This document shows, piece by piece, positions 28,984-36,170 of a stretch of DNA of 64,000 nucleotides (position 1 is its first letter; each line of letters starts with the position of its first letter). This DNA comes from Oceanimonas sp. GK1 (GTDB lineage Bacteria; Pseudomonadota; Gammaproteobacteria; Enterobacterales; Aeromonadaceae), in contig NC_016745.1 in the NCBI RefSeq assembly GCF_000243075.1, positions 3,241,001 to 3,305,000 on the forward strand. The letters are read 5' to 3'. The position numbers and the translations under genes are program-made. The notes under the pieces are model-generated. The model saw nothing but the letters and a program-made list of their open reading frames with translations. It was not told the DNA's origin and searched no databases.

Positions 28984-29712
28984 TTAGCCCAGGTGGGCGG
29001 CCAGTTCGTCGCTGCCGCCGATATGGCGGCCGTCGATAAACACCTGGGGCACGGTAGTGCGACCGGACACCGCCTTCAGGCTGATGCTGGTGGCATCCTG
29101 GCCGATGATCACCTCTTCATAGCGCATGTTGCGCTCCAGCAGCATCTGCTTGGCCCGGGCGCAGTAAGGACAGCCCGGCTTGCTGAACAGGGTAATGGCC
29201 GAGGGCTTGGCGGCTTCCGGGTTGATATAGGCCAGCATGGTGTCGGCATCGGACACTTCAAAGGGATCGCCGGGCTTTTCGGGCTCGATAAACATTTTTT
29301 CGATCACCCCGTCTTTCACCAGCATGGAGTAGCGCCAGGAACGCTGGCCAAAGCCCAGTTCCCGCTTGTCTACCAGCATGCCCATGCCCTCGGTGAATTC
29401 GCCGTTGCCGTCGGGGATCACTCGAATGTGCTCGGCCTCCTGATCCGCCAGCCAGGCGTTCATCACAAAGGTATCGTTCACGCTCATGCAGATGATCTCA
29501 TCCACACCGTTTTCAAACAGCACCGGCGCCAGCTCGTTGTAGCGCGGCAGGTGCGTGGACGAACAGGTGGGGGTAAAGGCGCCGGGCAGCGAGAACACCA
29601 CCACGGTTTTGCCACTGAACAGTTCATTCGAGGTTATGTCGGTCCACTGATCCTGCTGGCGGGTACGAAAGGTCACCTGGGGTACGCGCTGGCCGGTTTT
29701 GTCTGTCATCAT
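28984..29712 (-). CDS. Peroxiredoxin-glutaredoxin fusion protein
   Basis: 242-residue hybrid enzyme that reduces peroxides with glutathione. The N-terminal Prx5-type domain has the peroxidatic cysteine in [14 protein letters not shown] (about Cys50); the C-terminal glutaredoxin has CPYC (about 181-184) and the GSH-binding [18 protein letters not shown]. Such fusions are known from Haemophilus, Vibrio and Chromatium. The start at 29712 has AAGGA 7 bases upstream; a frame to 29763 is unlikely. oxyR lies directly downstream, so OxyR control is plausible. Confidence 0.95.
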
Positions 29713-29815
29713 ATTGAGTCCTTGTGCTGCCTGTTTGGAATTGGACTCATTATTACCCGACACAGAACAAAGGTGAAATCGTTTAGGCTGCTTAATTTGA
29801 TAGGTTTACACAATT

Positions 29816-30125: not shown

Positions 30126-31172
30126 TTAACTATAGACGACGCTTTCTTCCGGCACCCTGGCCATGGCCGCTTCCACCACCTCGGGGCCGGCGCCGCGTTT
30201 GTGGGCATTTTCACTGAGATGACGACGCCAGGCCCGGGCCCCCGGCATGCCCTGGAAAATCCCCAGGGTGTGGCGGGTAATATTGCCCAGATAGGTGCCC
30301 TGCGTCAGCTCCCGCTCGATATAAGGCAACAGCTGGCGGATCACCTGGTGGCGGCTCGGCGCCTCATGCTCGTCATTAAACAGCTCGGCATCCACCCGGG
30401 CCAGCAGATACGGGTTCTGATACACCTCGCGCCCCAGCATAACGCCATCCAGATTCGCCAGATGAACCCTAGCCTCTTCCAGGGTCTTGATGCCGCCGTT
30501 CACAGCGATGGTCAGCCCGGGATAATCCCGCTTGAGCTGATAAACCCGGTCGTAATCGAGCGGCGGAATGTCCCGGTTTTCCTTCGGGCTCAGCCCCTGC
30601 AGCCAGGCCTTGCGGGCATGTACGATCAGCGCATCGACGCCGGCCTCGGCCACCTTGTCTACCAGGGTGCACAGAAATTCGTAGCTGTCCTGTTCGTCGA
30701 TACCGATGCGGGTTTTCACCGTTACCGGAATGGACACCGCCGCCTTCATGGCCGCCACGCCCTCGGCCACGGTGTGGGGATGGGCCATCAAGCAGGCGCC
30801 GAACAGACCGTTTTGCACCCGATCCGACGGGCAGCCCACGTTCAGGTTGATCTCGTCGTAGCCGCGCTGCTCCGCCAGCCGGGCACAGTGCGCCAGAGCC
30901 TGCGGGTCATTGCCTCCCAATTGCAACACCAGCGGGTGCTCTTCGTCGTTGTAGGCCAGATAATCGCCCTTGCCGTGAATAATGGCGCCGGTGGTGACCA
31001 TTTCGGTATACAACTGGGCGTGACGGCTCATCAGCCGGTGAAAATAACGGCAATGACGGTCGGTCCAGTCCAACATGGGGGCAACAGAAAACCTGCCAGA
31101 GCTGAAACCGCCAGCCGTAGCGGCTTCGCTCTGGTTTTTCCTTGTATTTGAATCTCTTACAATCTTAGTCAT
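30126..31172 (-). CDS. dusA: tRNA-dihydrouridine(20/20a) synthase with island-derived N-terminus
   Basis: 348-residue FMN enzyme that reduces U20/U20a of tRNA. The core is a clear Dus[32 protein letters not shown] and the catalytic-cysteine segment [20 protein letters not shown]. The first ~28 residues ([20 protein letters not shown]...) are not normal for DusA and are encoded by an integrated element whose junction lies within codons for SVAPM (31074-31085). The original start codon, MSHYPSARFSVAP, survives at 35523-35588 beyond the island. The enzyme is probably functional, expressed from an element-derived start and promoter. Confidence 0.94.
31074..31085. other. Attachment junction, dusA side
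   Basis: CATGGGGGCAAC on the plus strand encodes VAPM of the current dusA on the minus strand. The same core with one fewer G is at 35548-35558. Similarity between the two junctions extends loosely to both sides ([11 protein letters not shown]), consistent with an attP that mimics the dusA 5' end. Confidence 0.75.
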
Positions 31173-31204
31173 TTGGCATTGGTCTCAGGCATTTTTCGGG
31201 CTGC

Positions 31205-31228
31205 GGTATCCCTTACAAATGGGATACC
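31205..31228. promoter_or_regulatory. Perfect inverted repeat upstream of the integrase remnant
   Basis: GGTATCCC-TTACAAAT-GGGATACC, two 8-bp arms with an 8-base spacer, 14 bp before the integrase start and 33 bp upstream of dusA. It could be an integrase arm-binding site or an autoregulatory operator. The core GGGATAC recurs twice close to the opposite island end (35422-35428 and, inverted, 35484-35490). Confidence 0.55.
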
Positions 31229-31241
31229 TGATGGAGGAAAC

Positions 31242-31418
31242 ATGGCCAGCTTTACAGTAGAGAAGCGCAAAATAGCGGCGGGCGTCATACGGTACCGCTG
31301 CATAGTGCGCGTCAAAAAAGATAAGGCGATAGTGTATCAGGAGTCCCGCACCTTCGGGAAATTGGCCAAGACCGGAACGCAGCCGGCGGCCAACCAGCGA
31401 CGAGCAAGCGGAAGCTGA
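31242..31418 (+). pseudogene. Truncated integrase (dusA-associated type), N-terminal remnant
   Basis: From the ATG at 31242, with GGAGG 4 bases upstream, the first ~45 codons (MASFTVEKRKIAAGVIRYRC, then IVRVKKDKAIVYQESRTFGK) look like the N-terminal arm-binding domain of tyrosine recombinases that insert at dusA. The reading frame then runs into an unrelated RQPAANQRRASGS-like tail and stops at 31418, 1 bp before the hicB stop. The core-binding and catalytic domains (R...HxxR...Y) are missing. The position, directly beside the dusA junction and pointing away from dusA, is where such an integrase is expected. Confidence 0.7.
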
Positions 31419-31865
31419 TCAGCTCGAAGTGCTGCGCTCTTCCAGCTCATGGCGACTGGCCACGGCCAGGAAGTGACTGCGGTCCCGGTATTGCCCCTTT
31501 GAGGCCTTCACCCGGGAGTCAATCAGCTGGATCAGGCCGTCCGGCAAGCTGACATTAATACGCTTGGGCTTGCCCATAAACTCGGTCAGATCCACATCCA
31601 GCAACAGCCAGCCGTCGCAGTGGCTGTAGTCCTCAAGCTGTCGATACTGGCGTGGGCCCATGTCCTTAATGTTGTCGACACTGACCCCATTGCTGACCAT
31701 TTCCTCTACCACCATGGCAATGGCCTCGGTGGCCATGGACTTCACCTGCTCTTCACTGTCGGCGGCACTGAAGCAGGCATAGTCATCATTACAGAGCGCA
31801 GGCACCACCAGGCCGAGCGCTTCCCCGTCGTGGGACGGATATTCAACACCGACTGAAAACAACAT
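31419..31865 (-). CDS. hicB: HicB-family antitoxin
   Basis: 148-residue antitoxin with an N-terminal HicB partial RNase-H-like fold (MLFSVGVEYPSHDGEALGLV ... DDYACFSAADSEEQV) and a C-terminal ribbon-helix-helix DNA-binding part (RINVSLPDGLIQLIDSRVKA). The start at 31865 has GGAGG 5 bases upstream; a longer frame to 31898 is not needed. It lies 45 bp after hicA on the same strand. It should neutralise HicA and repress the operon. Confidence 0.9.
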   Translation of the reverse strand: MLFSVGVEYPSHDGEALGLVVPALCNDDYACFSAADSEEQVKSMATEAIAMVVEEMVSNGVSVDNIKDMGPRQYRQLEDYSHCDGWLLLDVDLTEFMGKPKRINVSLPDGLIQLIDSRVKASKGQYRDRSHFLAVASRHELEERSTSS

Positions 31866-31910
31866 AAGCACCTCCGCTAAATTCTGTGTCAGACCCAAGG
31901 AGCGGGGGGA

Positions 31911-32093
31911 TCAAATCCCCGCCGCTTTCTTAATGGACTTGATGGTTCCGACCGGCAGCGATTTCTTCGGGTGCGGCACCGGGAAGGTTCTGCCCGTGAT
32001 GGGTGAGTACCAGATCTCGTGGCTCCCCTTGCCTTGCCGTTTAAGCTCGCAGCCGGCGGCCTTCAATTCCTTGATCAGGTCGCCTGACGTCAT
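31911..32093 (-). CDS. hicA: HicA-family mRNA interferase toxin
   Basis: 60-residue toxin of the double-stranded-RNA-binding fold type. The catalytic histidine lies in GKGSHEIW and the C-terminal PHPKKSLPVGTIKSIKKAAG is typical. AGGAGG is 4 bases upstream of the ATG. Complete and in the usual hicA-hicB order. Probably stabilises the island and may contribute to phage defence. Confidence 0.93.
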   Translation of the reverse strand: MTSGDLIKELKAAGCELKRQGKGSHEIWYSPITGRTFPVPHPKKSLPVGTIKSIKKAAGI

Positions 32094-32104
32094 AGAACCT
32101 CCTA

Positions 32105-32160
32105 ATCAAGTGCCATCAATATACACACCAATACACACAAAATCAAAATCAGGAGGCAGC
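32105..32160 (-). promoter_or_regulatory. hicAB promoter region with direct repeats
   Basis: On the minus strand the 5' flank of hicA holds GTGTGTATTGGTGTGTATAT, two GTGTGTAT repeats 10 bases apart, running into a TATATT-like -10. Such repeats just before the toxin start are good candidates for HicB binding. No footprint is known; this is read from sequence alone. Confidence 0.4.
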
Positions 32161-32472
32161 AAAGAAGGGGCCCACCATCTCTCTTCCAGCTCCTTGATGG
32201 GCATCTGTTGTATCAGGCAATCTGTAGGCATAGCAGTTGACTGGAAGTAGCAACTTCATCCCCACCATCTGGAAGACGCGGTGAAGATGAACCCACTGGC
32301 GGCGGCCGGGAAAGCAGAATTTCAACGGATGATCTTTTTTGAAGAAAAATGAAATTACGGCGGGGCAGCGCAGGATCCGGCAAGGATCGCAAAGCCCCGC
32401 CGGCTCTGCCTCTCCGGCCGTTTACGTGGGTGTATTTCACATTCCAATGTTTTATCTGGCCAACAATAAACA
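32161..32472. other. Island spacer without a convincing gene
   Basis: No ORF with protein-like composition is seen. The segment contains an interrupted inverted repeat GGCGGGGC (32359-32366) and GCCCCGCC (32394-32401). Short minus-strand open frames across it are proline/arginine-rich and lack supporting features. Confidence 0.4.
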
Positions 32473-32625
32473 TTGTATAAAGTGAGGCTGAGTGAGGTGT
32501 TCAGACTGATCAGCAGGCTGCCCCCGACAGAGCCGGAAGAGCTGGTGGAAAGGCTGAAGAAAGAGTTGCCGCCTGTTATGGAAGCCGAACCAAGCGGCCC
32601 CAGGATCGTCAGGCGGTCAACGTGA
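32473..32625 (+). CDS. Possible small ORF in the island
   Basis: An open frame of about 50 codons starting at TTG 32473 or GTG 32482 reads ...VRLSEVFRLISRLPPTEPEE, then LVERLKKELPPVMEAEPSGP and ends at TGA 32625. The amphipathic, glutamate/lysine-rich character is protein-like, but there is no clear Shine-Dalgarno or ATG start. It could be a complete small protein or the tail of a lost gene. No family recognised. Confidence 0.3.
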   Translation: MYKVRLSEVFRLISRLPPTEPEELVERLKKELPPVMEAEPSGPRIVRRST

Positions 32626-32637
32626 CTATTCTTCACT

Positions 32638-32659
32638 GTGGCGGCTGGCCAGCCGCCAC
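32638..32659. terminator. Perfect 22-bp palindrome between small ORF and KAP gene
   Basis: GTGGCGGCTGG-CCAGCCGCCAC has 11-bp arms with no loop bases. It lies between the 3' ends of the small plus-strand ORF and the minus-strand KAP NTPase gene. No long T-tract, so termination is inferred from position only. Confidence 0.45.
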
Positions 32660-32691
32660 TTTCAAACAAATATCATTACGACATCCGCGGT

Positions 32692-34839
32692 TTAGTCGCC
32701 CCCGAAATCACCAGGTCGCCAACCACCTAGATACTTCTCTGCAAGCTCGAGATACATAAGTTCACCTTTGGGGCAAACCGGCCTGAGCTGCGCTATGCGT
32801 TCGCCCAACTCTCTTTCTCCACCGCATATTTCGACTAACACATCCCACGCTAGCCGGGGAGACCGCCGTACCGCACGGGTTCCCATCTGTTGGCTCAGAG
32901 CGTAGCTATGAGCTGAACGCAATAGTCGAAGTACTATTGCTGGAGAGTCAGGAACCACAAGAAGAGCTTCATTAGAGCTCGCATCCCGTTTCGCATTCAT
33001 CAGAACCCGAAGTAGATCTTGCTCTTTAGTCAAGGTTGATGGTGCAGCAGCTCGAACTTCGGCCCGCCATTCCGCTTCTAGCTGGCGAGCGGCCTCCTCA
33101 CTTACAAGCTCATGCCCAGCATTCTCGCGGTATCCCACTATCGTAATGAGTTTATTCTTCGCCGATAAAGTGTTGAGTTCCGGCAAAATCCTCCGAACGG
33201 CCTCTTCAACTTTATCAGGAGTTTTTATAGTCCGCACTAACCGATAGACCACCCGCCCGACAACCATTGCTGAGCCAAACTCAAACATACCTCGCTCCCT
33301 TTCTGGCAGGTCAGGGAGAAGGTTAAGCAAAGCTACGCTTCCAGGAATAACGTGTTCTGGTTCAAATTCGTCCTCGTAAACCTCCAGAGACGAAATAACA
33401 TCCTCCCACATCTCCGGCTCGATAAGACGAAAATAATCCTCTAGGGCCTTTCTGTTTAGCATCCGGGCCCAAACTTCTTCGGCATGCGTGAAGGCCTGAA
33501 GCCCTTCCCCAAGCACTCTCTCCAGGTAAAACCTAAGCACATCCTCATGCGCCACTCGCCGTTCTCGAAGCCATCTATGCGCCGACTGCGGTACGTAACA
33601 TGAGCCGCCTATATGACTTAGAGCAGCGGGAAAGAGACGTTCTATTACGTCTCGTACAACAGGAGCGTGCGCACCAGCCGAATCAATGAGTTGTTCAATC
33701 TGCTGTTTTAGGTACGGCGAGTCATCGCTACCACTGCTAGAAAAATTACTAGTCTGGGTTAAACCATCAATGGATATATGCAGCCTTCGAAACACATCAG
33801 GCAGGAAAACCCGTACGGCTTCCAAAGCAAGTACATCTACCAAAGCAACTTGGCCACCCAATCCTGTAACAGTACCATGAACAGAAGCTGCGTAACGCCG
33901 AACGTCGCGCATGTTCCGTACCAAGGGGCGAATCACTTCCATGAACACATCGGGCCAAGAGTCCTCATCGAACGTTCCCTTCTGATCCACCTGCGAGAGA
34001 GCGTCATCAATCGCCTTGAGAGTTTGATGAATTAGGGCCTTGGGTGGCACCTCCGGGAGATCGATCCCCACCTGAAGAATCTTCTCAAGATAATCACGGC
34101 CGGGAATGCCCTGCTCGGCGAGGGCTTCTTCAACGCGCGCACGGTCAAAAGCCACCACATATATAATGTTTGGAAAGTTCGCTGTCAGTCTCACCAGCTT
34201 GAATATATCCCGTATTTCTCCAGTGGTGAGTCGGTCGATATCATCAAGCACAACGATAAGAGGCTTACTCAAGCCTCGAAGAGCTTTTTCAACTTTAGCC
34301 CTCCGGCTACCAACACCTTCCCTGCGATGCTGAAGCATTTTGGAAATTAGGCTTGTTGCTGCTCGCCCTCTCTCTATCCAGGGGCCTACCAATGGCAACC
34401 ATCCCATGCCGGCGAATGCTTCTCCGTATTCCTCCAAGCCTTTGCCAACCTCAGACAGCTCTGGGGTAAGTCGAAGCTGCGCTGATATCTCAACGAAAAA
34501 GGAGTCAACCAACTGCTCAGTCCCGCTAAACATCCAAGGGTTGAAATTAAGTACAGCAATTCCCGAATCATCCAGATACGTACGAGCAATGTTTACAAAT
34601 GAAGTCTTGCCAGAACCCCAGGGCCCTAAAACCCCCACAACCACGCCCTCACTCACATCCAAGGAAAGAAGCTGGCTCGCGAAATTCTTGGCAACTTTCG
34701 CCCTCCCTAATGCGTCATCTACTGGGTCTTGAATAGGATTGTCCGCAGTCGCGCCTACCTTTTTTACCTCACGGCGTGCAACCTGGTTGACATCAACTTT
34801 TCTTTTGGAACGTCGAAAAATGCTAAGTATTCGCTTCAA
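32692..34839 (-). CDS. KAP-family P-loop NTPase
   Basis: 715-residue protein. The KAP NTPase domain occupies the first ~350 residues: Walker A GPWGSGKTS (72-80), the KAP signature FNPWMFSG (99-106) and Walker B LIVVLDDIDRL (194-204), then an arginine-finger-like IIYVVAFDRARVEEAL. The remaining ~350 residues are helical and not recognised. KAP NTPases were named after Kidins220/ARMS and the F-plasmid phage-exclusion protein PifA. No strong membrane segments are seen, unlike many KAP proteins. It starts with TTG at 34839; GGAGG lies about 10 bases upstream and no suitable ATG follows nearby. GC content is lower than in the flanks. A role in phage defence is inferred from family and context. Confidence 0.85.
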   Translation of the reverse strand: MKRILSIFRRSKRKVDVNQVARREVKKVGATADNPIQDPVDDALGRAKVAKNFASQLLSLDVSEGVVVGVLGPWGSGKTSFVNIARTYLDDSGIAVLNFNPWMFSGTEQLVDSFFVEISAQLRLTPELSEVGKGLEEYGEAFAGMGWLPLVGPWIERGRAATSLISKMLQHRREGVGSRRAKVEKALRGLSKPLIVVLDDIDRLTTGEIRDIFKLVRLTANFPNIIYVVAFDRARVEEALAEQGIPGRDYLEKILQVGIDLPEVPPKALIHQTLKAIDDALSQVDQKGTFDEDSWPDVFMEVIRPLVRNMRDVRRYAASVHGTVTGLGGQVALVDVLALEAVRVFLPDVFRRLHISIDGLTQTSNFSSSGSDDSPYLKQQIEQLIDSAGAHAPVVRDVIERLFPAALSHIGGSCYVPQSAHRWLRERRVAHEDVLRFYLERVLGEGLQAFTHAEEVWARMLNRKALEDYFRLIEPEMWEDVISSLEVYEDEFEPEHVIPGSVALLNLLPDLPERERGMFEFGSAMVVGRVVYRLVRTIKTPDKVEEAVRRILPELNTLSAKNKLITIVGYRENAGHELVSEEAARQLEAEWRAEVRAAAPSTLTKEQDLLRVLMNAKRDASSNEALLVVPDSPAIVLRLLRSAHSYALSQQMGTRAVRRSPRLAWDVLVEICGGERELGERIAQLRPVCPKGELMYLELAEKYLGGWRPGDFGGD

Positions 34840-35201
34840 TTGTTATTAGCCTCCACCCAATAATTTTAATACCTGCGTGCACATATATTCTTGCACGAAC
34901 TCTTAAAAATTAAGAATGCGATTGAATTTAACTTTTTCATTAAAGGTAAATACTTAACTGGAAATTCTTGGCGACCTTGCCTCTCCTCGTCCCTGTGAAG
35001 ATGATCTCCGCCAGTCGAATGGAATCGTATGAAACCGCTTCATTATGACGTTACAAGCCGCCGAATGGAAGAATAGCCCAAGAGCCTGGCCGCAACTGAG
35101 CCCGCCTGGCGTTAATGCGTTTGGAACACCGAATTATGAGGGGGCTCCTCCAGCACGACGTGATATCGCCAGCTACCAAGCCCTAGGTTAAATATGACGG
35201 T

Positions 35202-35239
35202 CCAGGGCTTTGCCCTGGCGGGTATGGGCGGAGCCCATA
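35202..35239. repeat. Twin tight hairpins in the island
   Basis: CCAGGGC-TTT-GCCCTGG (35202-35218) and TATGGGC-GGA-GCCCATA (35223-35239): two perfect 7-bp stems with 3-base loops separated by 4 bases. Function unknown; tandem hairpins of this kind occur in origins, attachment sites and single-strand recombination substrates. Confidence 0.5.
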
Positions 35240-35421
35240 AAGACCCAGCGAAACGGCAGGCCAGGATAAATCCGCTACGCGATCACTGATTCATCAAGCG
35301 ATAGAAAGCTTTCCTACGCCCTGTCAAACCGAGTTTTTGCCAACAGGCGTCAAGTCGCTTGAGCTTGATGCAGGCAGATCAAAAGTCCGCTTAGCTTGCT
35401 GCAGGGAATCTGGGAACGGGT

Positions 35422-35490
35422 GGGATACTGGGTAGTAGCAGGGGACAGAAAGTACGTTTAATCAGATCCTCGGTGATCCATAAGTATCCC
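35422..35490. promoter_or_regulatory. Candidate integrase arm-type sites near the zur-side junction
   Basis: GGGATAC at 35422-35428 and its inverse GTATCCC at 35484-35490 match the core of the perfect inverted repeat at 31205-31228 next to the integrase start. They lie 58-126 bp from the junction core. Pairs of short sites flanking both ends are what an integrase N-terminal domain would bind. Confidence 0.4.
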
Positions 35491-35522
35491 AAGGAATTAA
35501 CCAGTCCAATAAAAACAAAGGC

Positions 35523-35588
35523 TTATTTAAAAGTCAGCCCCATCGAGCATGGGGCAACGGAGAAACGGGCGCTGGGATAATGGCTCAT
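35523..35588 (-). pseudogene. dusA: Displaced original 5' end of dusA
   Basis: The ATG at 35588 reads MSHYPSARFSVAP, a normal DusA N-terminus, then goes out of frame after one missing C in the CCC proline codon and stops at TAA (35523-35525). The core FSVAP matches the current dusA (FSVAPMLDW) 4.5 kb away. This is the original start of dusA, cut off by the island. It now makes at most a 21-residue peptide. Confidence 0.82.
35548..35558. other. Attachment junction, zur side
   Basis: CATGGGGCAAC, the partner of 31074-31085 with one G fewer. To its left the island sequence still imitates dusA (ATG CTC GAT GGG GCT GAC, compared with ATG TTG GAC TGG ACC GAC in the gene). Confidence 0.7.
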
Positions 35589-35621
35589 GGGCGTGATGAC
35601 TTTTTGAACAACGGGGCGCGC

Positions 35622-35650
35622 ATTATACCCAAGCATGCTCACAGACCCAA
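35622..35650 (-). promoter_or_regulatory. Original dusA promoter, now reading into the island
   Basis: On the minus strand TTGGGT, 17 bases, then a perfect TATAAT. The -10 lies 34 bp upstream of the displaced dusA ATG at 35588. After integration it fires toward the KAP NTPase gene about 780 bp downstream on the same strand. Confidence 0.65.
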
Positions 35651-35720
35651 CCCTGAAGGCAGGAAGGGGCCGCCGGCTGTGTTAATATGCGCCCAGAAGC
35701 CCTAGCGATGAGCCTGATTT

Positions 35721-36170
35721 ATGTCCATAACACAACAACTTAAACGTGCCGAGCAGCTGTGCGAACAGCGCGGAGTGCGTTTTACGCCCACCCGCCGTCA
35801 TGTGTTCGCCCTGATGGCCGAACACAAGGGGGCGGTCAGTGCCTACGAGTTGCTGGATCAGCTCAAGGAGCTGGAGCCCAGCGCCAAGCCACCCACGGTA
35901 TACCGGGCGCTGGACTTTTTGCTGGCCCAGGGCTTTGTGCACAAGGTGGAGTCGCTCAATGCCTTTCTGTTCTGCGATCACTTTGCCGAGCACCACCCCA
36001 TGCAACTGTTGATCTGCACCCAGTGCGGCGAGGTCATCGAGCTGCACGACGAGGCCATCAACCGCGCCTTTGAGCACCAGGCCGAGCTGCACGGCTTTGC
36101 CATTACCAGTCAGTCCATTGAAGCCCACGGCCGGTGCCGCCGCTGCCGGGGCGAAAGTGCCGGCAGCTGA
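35721..36170 (+). CDS. zur: Zinc uptake regulator Zur (Fur family)
   Basis: 149-residue metal-dependent repressor. The segment PPTVYRALDFLLAQGFVHKV is nearly identical to E. coli Zur and sets it apart from Fur. Zinc-site cysteines are visible in CTQCGE and CRRCRG, and histidines in HFAEHHPM. It should repress zinc importers when zinc is ample. In E. coli zur and dusA are near neighbours; here the island separates them. The 5' spacer also contains the old divergent dusA promoter. Confidence 0.93.
   Translation: MSITQQLKRAEQLCEQRGVRFTPTRRHVFALMAEHKGAVSAYELLDQLKELEPSAKPPTVYRALDFLLAQGFVHKVESLNAFLFCDHFAEHHPMQLLICTQCGEVIELHDEAINRAFEHQAELHGFAITSQSIEAHGRCRRCRGESAGS

Follow-up and report, generated by a model that had tools for sequence, protein, structure and literature searches.

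A dusA gene split from its own start by a genomic island in Oceanimonas sp. GK1, and complete relatives of the island that resemble phage satellites

The split dusA locus and its counterparts in the genus

In a stretch of 64,000 nucleotides from Oceanimonas sp. GK1 (contig NC_016745.1, positions 3,241,001 to 3,305,000; hereafter the window), the gene dusA is separated from its own start by an island between positions 31074 and 35558, which, judged by its sequence, is a dusA-specific genomic island (Table 1). The native dusA start, MSHYPSARFSVAP, sits 4.4 kb upstream of the present one on the same strand. A preliminary description of the locus had claimed that dusA is split from its own start by a 4.5-kb island, and this observation is confirmed: both starts can be read in the sequence, and the start of the gene is uninterrupted in 15 of the 23 genomes of the same genus that were compared (one genome per species, namely that of the window, G000, and 22 others). 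The leader that had been noted before FSVAPMLDW is present there, but it comprises 26 residues, including GGFSSGR, which the preliminary description had omitted. About residues 1-26 of DusA would be derived from the element and the remainder from the host, with the exact exchange point inside the core left unfixed.

The island is inserted into dusA within its conserved 5' portion, it is bounded by imperfect direct repeats (the attachment sites attL and attR, with cores of 11 and 12 bp), and the island supplies a new 5' end of dusA, the old end being found at the far boundary. The core in the stranded start is one base shorter than in other genomes, so that the frame continues to MSHYPSARFSVAPCSMGLTFK and then reaches a stop codon. 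The dusA-associated tyrosine integrase, divergent from dusA, is represented by descent only, as a stump of 46 amino acids (aa), and no intact catalytic integrase was found in the island of the window, where nothing of it follows after about 46 aa. The integrase had already been described as broken; in agreement with this, only its first ~46 residues are found, starting at 31242, and no match to a full-length relative was obtained in the same genome at E <= 1e-30.

Table 1. Features of the dusA locus in the window.
Feature	Positions	Strand	Remarks
dusA, chimeric	30126..31172	-	348 aa; PF01207 E 8e-94
attR core CATGGGGGCAAC, 12 bp	31074..31085	.	
Leader, putatively element-derived, 78 bp, translated	31095..31172	-	adjoins attR core; in 7/23 same-genus genomes, diverged form in an eighth
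Divergent int/dusA intergenic region	31173..31241	.	inverted GGTATCCC...GGGATACC; third copy, present in 6/8 occupied genomes, missing
Stump of dusA-associated integrase	31242..31418	+	first ~46 of ~358 aa, then unrelated tail to stop
HicB-like antitoxin	31419..31898	-	uninterrupted frame, real start maybe a later ATG; PF15919 E 2e-22
HicA toxin	31911..32093	-	uninterrupted frame; PF07927 E 6e-19
3' tail of second (P2-type) integrase gene	32253..32310	.	core module beyond it, seen in relatives, absent
Remnant of region beside and within ogr	32304..32651	.	neighbouring cos-like core absent
KAP P-loop NTPase, PifA-like, cargo	32692..34839	-	715 aa; PF07693 E 3e-43; PADLOC PifA E 8e-59
Conserved attL arm	34970..35547	.	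no recognised gene
Stranded native dusA start MSHYPSARFSVAP	35523..35588	-	beside zur
attL inverted repeat GCCCCATGCTCGATGGGGC, then T run	35537..35555	-	
attL core CATGGGGCAAC, 11 bp	35548..35558	.	one base less than attR
zur (Fur family), host flank	35721..36170	+	

Fourteen of the 15 genomes with an uninterrupted site have a MSHYPSARFSVAP-like start close to zur, and the empty site of G018 has its own 21-residue dusA start, and there a further host gene separates zur from dusA. The leader of the element together with the neighbouring integrase start is found in eight genomes: G000, G003, G007 (Oceanimonas baumannii ATCC 700832), G008 (a gammaproteobacterial metagenome-assembled genome, MAG, 84% complete), G013, G015, G016 and G020 (Zobellella iuensis). 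An integrase start lies beside dusA in 8/8 occupied versus 0/15 empty genomes. The leader is nearly identical in seven occupied genomes and diverged in G015, where it stands beside the same kind of integrase. At the far end of the island, the old dusA start is readable in six of the eight occupied genomes (the copy in G013 has no start codon); it was not found in G016, and in G015 the contig ends before the far boundary. Comparison of occupied with empty sites yields 90.7% identity over the 600 bp upstream and 89.0% in the dusA body for G000 and G009, 90.9% over the 600 bp upstream and 93.7% in the dusA body for G020 and G018, and 95.4%, in the upstream region only, for G008 and G019. Given the 15 of 23 uninterrupted sites and the near-identical leader in six of the seven other occupied genomes, the split is not a matter of chance. 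The idea that the long N-terminus beginning with MTKIVRDSN is native to DusA, which the preliminary description had named as the alternative to look for in island-free relatives, is rejected, because none of the 15 empty sites of the genus has the leader. Where the leader is present, it is accompanied by the integrase start, which agrees with the earlier proposal that the host gene has been repaired by an element-derived 5' end. It had also been stated that integrases that enter dusA form an established family, and this holds for the elements described here: the copy from G003 is 58.6% identical over 99% to the integrase in the record of phage mEp460, which Farrugia et al. (2015) count among the carriers of dusA-associated integrases (PMC4482086).

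Compared with the islands of G020 and G003, the island of the window retains the leader, 46 residues of the integrase, hicBA, the tail of the second integrase, a part of the ogr region and the attL arm. The body of the integrase is missing, as are the replication core and the cos-like core, with visible deletion endpoints. The segment 31430-32251, which contains hicBA, is 91% identical to the island of G020. Two P2-like prophages of the genus also carry hicBA, at 83-86% identity, so the pair is found in phages as well as in dusA islands. G000 also holds one P2-like prophage. The KAP NTPase has no match in viral contigs and one distant match in phage records; 1057 plasmid records match it, all below 60% identity and one of them covering at least 80%; at E 1e-60 it was found only in its own genome among 369 genomes of the class; and solved structures gave 19 weak P-loop matches, the best with E 0.008. 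The attL arm aligns in G003, G007 and G008 at 75-83% (positions 34970-35800), in G020 at 78% (34970-35575) and in G013 at 79% (35019-35800). Hence a stretch of ~600 bp beside attL, in which no gene is recognised, is conserved in six islands, that of the window and five relatives. A known RNA in the island of the window is rejected, as the only match of the Rfam scan (E 0.94) lies below its gathering score.

Complete relatives of the island

The full dusA-associated integrase is present in five of the 23 genomes (G003, G007, G008, G015 and G020). In G015 it belongs to a P2-like prophage located at the same dusA site and is of the same kind, with 86% identity. The other four genomes contain complete islands, which measure from core to core 12.8 kb in G003 (locus L031), 13.7 kb in G007 (L032), 12.3 kb in G008 (L052) and 13.4 kb in G020 (L038). 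Profile scans were run on the proteins of G003, and the contents of the other three were established by alignment, tblastn or searches within the genus. Starting from dusA, the islands share the order of integrase (~358 aa), variable stretch, small helix-turn-helix (HTH) protein (PF12728 in G003, with a similar open reading frame, ORF, in G020), truncated GPO, a protein of 220-229 aa that belongs to no known family (hereafter the 220-aa protein), PrtN-type excisionase, GPA replication protein, second P2-type integrase, Ogr/Delta activator, cargo and the ~600 bp arm. The GPO-type scaffold protease is shortened to about 190-215 aa and spans model positions 3-139 (3-143 in G020) of 268. The frame of the PrtN-type excisionase is open in three of the four islands, and none is listed in G008. 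GPA of G003 (733 aa, PF05840 E 3.5e-87) is the sole listed ORF above 400 aa in that island, and the Ogr/Delta activator of G003 matches PF04606 with E 8e-8, above the curated cut-off. The second P2-type integrase accompanies the dusA-associated one in the islands of G003, G020 and G008, and may permit a second integration site; in G007 only a short piece of it is found.

The four complete islands yield no match to the Q portal or the terminase, and the P2 capsid gene, present in seven of the 23 genomes, is never located inside them; in none of these three genes do they qualify as P2-like prophages. Among the four islands, dN/dS (the ratio of non-synonymous to synonymous change) is 0.09-0.33 for the truncated GPO (five of six pairs computable) and 0.09-0.25 for the 220-aa protein, with silent-site saturation in some of the pairs. 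The Ogr proteins of the islands are 83-86% identical to Ogr of G003, versus 40-46% to phage Ogr (41-46%, against four prophages, in the case of G003). The 220-aa protein is found only in these satellite-like islands: it is absent from viral contigs, from phage records and from the ten prophage stretches compared; in the collection of genome contigs it has three loci, which are those of G007, G008 and G020, and none from elsewhere; and among 394 genomes of the order it occurs in two, both of this genus. Against solved chains its best sequence match has E 1.2, which is noise. The predicted model consists mainly of two long helices, with a mean pLDDT (per-residue model confidence) of 63 and low confidence past residue ~135. 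Of the 317 matches with E <= 10 that a fold search among viral models gave, none reached E <= 0.001. A relationship to GPO was considered and rejected (hhalign probability 0.2).

The cargo slot varies. In G007 one protein at this slot matches PDC-M36A, a candidate defence model (E 2e-51), and another has a weak HNH-type match. In G020 weak matches were obtained for two proteins, to a TIR-type domain in one and to HEPN in the other. The three proteins of G003 and the two of four G008 proteins that were scanned have no match.

Two blocks are shared with P2-like prophages. In gene A, 65-80 bp are 86-96% identical to the prophages, whereas the rest of the gene is mostly 63-70% identical; this block is read as a putative replication origin, since the origin of P2 is reported to lie in gene A (PMC8537503). 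The other block, of ~240 bp, is situated between the second integrase and ogr. It contains a 21-base core, GGCGGGCGCGGAGGAGCGCGG, which is present in all four complete islands (with one mismatch in G008) and once in the stretches fetched from each of six prophage-bearing genomes, G000, G007, G012 (one mismatch), G013, G015 and G018; the prophage sites are L070:3354 (+), L075:19398 (-), L078:2756 (-), L079:3156 (-), L083:10609 (+) and L084:12648 (+). In G000 and G013 this core lies a few hundred bases from tRNA-Leu, and in G015 it is missing from the dusA contig and present on another contig. It is absent from all three decayed islands (G000, G013 and G016). From its sharing and position, we propose the block as a candidate cohesive-end (cos) or packaging region; a description of cos was looked for in a small sample of the literature on P2-like phages and was not found there. 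In O. baumannii a complete satellite-like island (L032) occurs together with a P2-like prophage that has a capsid gene (L072/L073/L083), and the two carry the cos-like core identically.

The leader and the junctions

Of the 26 codons of the leader, 23 have the same third base in all four complete islands. Windows of 26 codons that reach this value number 0/315 in the integrase, 0/194 in the 220-aa protein and 10/707 in the replication gene of the same islands, and all ten of the latter overlap the origin-like block. Pairwise dS is 0.06-0.20 in the leader versus 0.47-1.01 in the integrase; G015, with its diverged leader, is omitted from the leader counts, and single values are rough owing to the shortness of the leader. 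This conservation of silent sites suggests that the leader is kept as DNA and not mainly as protein, most likely as an integrase arm or a regulatory site that is also translated as the N-terminus of DusA. Selection at the protein level as the main cause is rejected, because synonymous and non-synonymous changes are both low. It is a case of a coding leader whose silent sites are conserved at the DNA level, which points to a site for recombination or regulation that serves two purposes. Between int and dusA, three GGGATA-type repeats with fixed spacing are found in six of the eight occupied genomes, whereas G000 has two and G016 one; such a loss would be expected if the regulator of the element no longer acts, although G013, also decayed, retains all three.

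The sequence CATGGGG(G)CAAC had been taken to mark the crossover. It is indeed a conserved core common to both junctions, but the strand exchange itself may have occurred immediately next to it, somewhere within ATGCTCGA, a stretch flanked by two inverted arms. In 6/6 attL sites that were read, the joined halves of host and element form a hairpin with a T run behind it, versus 0/4 folded empty sites (of 15); in the terminator scan of the window, the attL hairpin counts as one site where shuffled sequences give 1.2. The hairpin may represent a pair of integrase core sites and possibly also a stop for transcripts from the old start. The preliminary interpretation is thus supported with two refinements, one concerning the position of the exchange and the other the attribution of the island to a phage-satellite-like family.

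Proposed origin and decay, and relation to known elements

The three occupied genomes without the full integrase are those with the three short islands, of 4.5 kb core to core in G000 and 2.8 kb in G013, while in G016 the starts of zur and dusA are separated by 353 bp, a scar of ~0.35 kb. G016 has lost nearly the whole island and the stranded native start, and its dusA still begins with the leader. Within a single genus one can follow a path that leads from an empty site to complete islands and on to a scar of ~0.35 kb, and all three integrase-less islands leave the host with the putative promoter region and the N-terminus of the element. With the integrase gone, the element would be unable to excise itself, and the chimeric dusA is therefore probably permanent, locked in by the loss.

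We infer the following history, which we regard as a whole as highly probable. A dusA-specific element would have integrated, by means of its tyrosine integrase, into a short core near codons 11-16 of dusA. The end of the element would have brought along a promoter region and a start codon, followed by 26 in-frame codons, so that dusA was re-started at once and its native start stayed behind next to zur as a defunct remnant. The parent element would have come from the family of 12-14 kb, complete in four relatives, that resembles a satellite of P2-like phages. Later deletions would have cost the element most of its integrase as well as the replication core and the cos-like block; what remains is the leader, the uninterrupted HicAB pair, the PifA-like KAP NTPase and the attL arm. 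Addiction to HicAB and cargo for phage exclusion may explain why this remainder has been retained.

It is tempting to go further and to consider the island of the window as the stump of a so far undescribed family of dusA-resident, P2-dependent satellites, with an Ogr-type activator, GPA, a short scaffold protease and a helical protein that possibly alter the assembly of the helper capsid, a cos-like block and a slot for defence-like cargo, in which the recombination arm becomes, after the loss of the integrase, the permanent start of a core-gene protein. We put forward this more specific proposal tentatively, as one that may or may not hold. Several points weigh against the history outlined above. 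No P2 capsid gene was found in three of the four genomes with a complete island (one of them, G008, is the 84% complete MAG). The 'good promoter' described upstream of the old start could not be confirmed, as a scan for the sigma-70 consensus, which is crude and compatible with the presence of a promoter, found no site in 34800-35750 and none in 31050-31350. The ends of the island could still be recombined by an integrase that a superinfecting dusA phage brings in, though the attL core is one base short. Finally, the large relatives might be P2-like prophages that have become smaller.

If they were deletion remnants of ordinary P2-like prophages that use dusA, the island of the window would be a prophage scar without a satellite history. 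The P2 type of the replication gene, Ogr, the scaffold protease and the second integrase would fit such an origin, as would the prophage of G015 with its related integrase at the same site; we nevertheless find it unlikely, given that the gene set and order are largely kept in four species, with open frames and low dN/dS of both the truncated GPO and the 220-aa protein, that the island Ogr proteins are closer to Ogr of G003 than to phage Ogr, and that neither the ten prophage stretches nor the phage records contain the 220-aa protein. A different view of the split itself is that the element captures the old dusA promoter for its cargo, so that promoters are exchanged. In the five cargo-bearing islands, the interval from the attL arm to ogr or its remnant has 12 listed ORFs with a length of 110 aa or more, and all 12 run in the direction of this promoter, but the hairpin and T run directly after the stranded start at all six sites could stop transcripts, and ~600 bp of arm lie past it; as a main role we reject promoter capture on account of the hairpin, a weak ground in view of the scan result, and deem it improbable. 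A reading in which the island never formed a unit, with the native start displaced by an inversion or an unrelated insertion and the leader a native variant of the N-terminus, is a general possibility that has nothing further in its favour and is hardly credible in view of the common core of attL and attR, the absence of the leader from all 15 island-free genomes and its association with the integrase start in all eight occupied ones.

The site, the kind of integrase, the repeats and the replacement of the 5' end are known from published work (PMC4482086; PMC8409611). The dusA-specific islands, as described in PMC4482086, share with the island of the window the location in the 5' part of dusA, imperfect direct repeats, a new 5' end with the old one at the outer boundary, and a divergent integrase; the 12/11-bp core was compared by description with their repeats, for which a 21-bp logo is published (PMC4482086). 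However, the islands of that account were gathered by their integrase and have a mean length of 42.6 kb, the smallest being 4758 bp (PMC4482086), whereas here an integrase stump is found and the series extends down to the ~0.35-kb scar. For another dusA element, a new promoter and N-terminus are reported to have been demonstrated experimentally, with expression re-started at a reduced level (PMC8409611). IMEVchUSA3 and other SGI1-like dusA elements of Vibrio differ in being mobilised, according to the same source, by IncC plasmids (PMC8409611); profile scans of proteins from the window and from the G003 island recognised no transfer genes. The P2-like phage Smhb1 of Salinivibrio, as described in PMC8537503, is a phage of P2 type that likewise has a dusA-associated integrase and a foreign piece of the dusA 5' end at a junction, but it is a complete phage, whereas the elements described here have no match to capsid, portal or terminase.

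With the P4-like satellites portrayed in PMC8628076, the complete relatives share the integrase, an AlpA-like HTH protein (in G003), an Ogr/Delta-type activator and variable cargo that includes defence-like genes. On the other hand, they have the P2-type GPA instead of the alpha primase-helicase, which has no counterpart among the listed ORFs above 400 aa in G003, no sid or psu was recognised, and the truncated GPO and the helical protein are carried instead. PICMI of Vibrionaceae are also small satellites of marine gammaproteobacteria with a defence gene (PMC10803314), but they are described as adjoining fis and as having three core proteins for excision and replication (PMC10803314), while the present islands lie in dusA beside zur. 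A dusA-resident family of P2-type satellites with such a gene content was not found in the open-licence literature, nor was a decay series that ends in a chimeric dusA, which is weak evidence of their absence. The islands point to a satellite family of P2-like phages, and the co-occurrence of an island and a P2-like prophage in the genome of O. baumannii makes the satellite idea directly testable.

Outside the island, the ORF at positions 28984-29763 (minus strand) of the window reads by eye, with no search made, as a fusion of peroxiredoxin and glutaredoxin.

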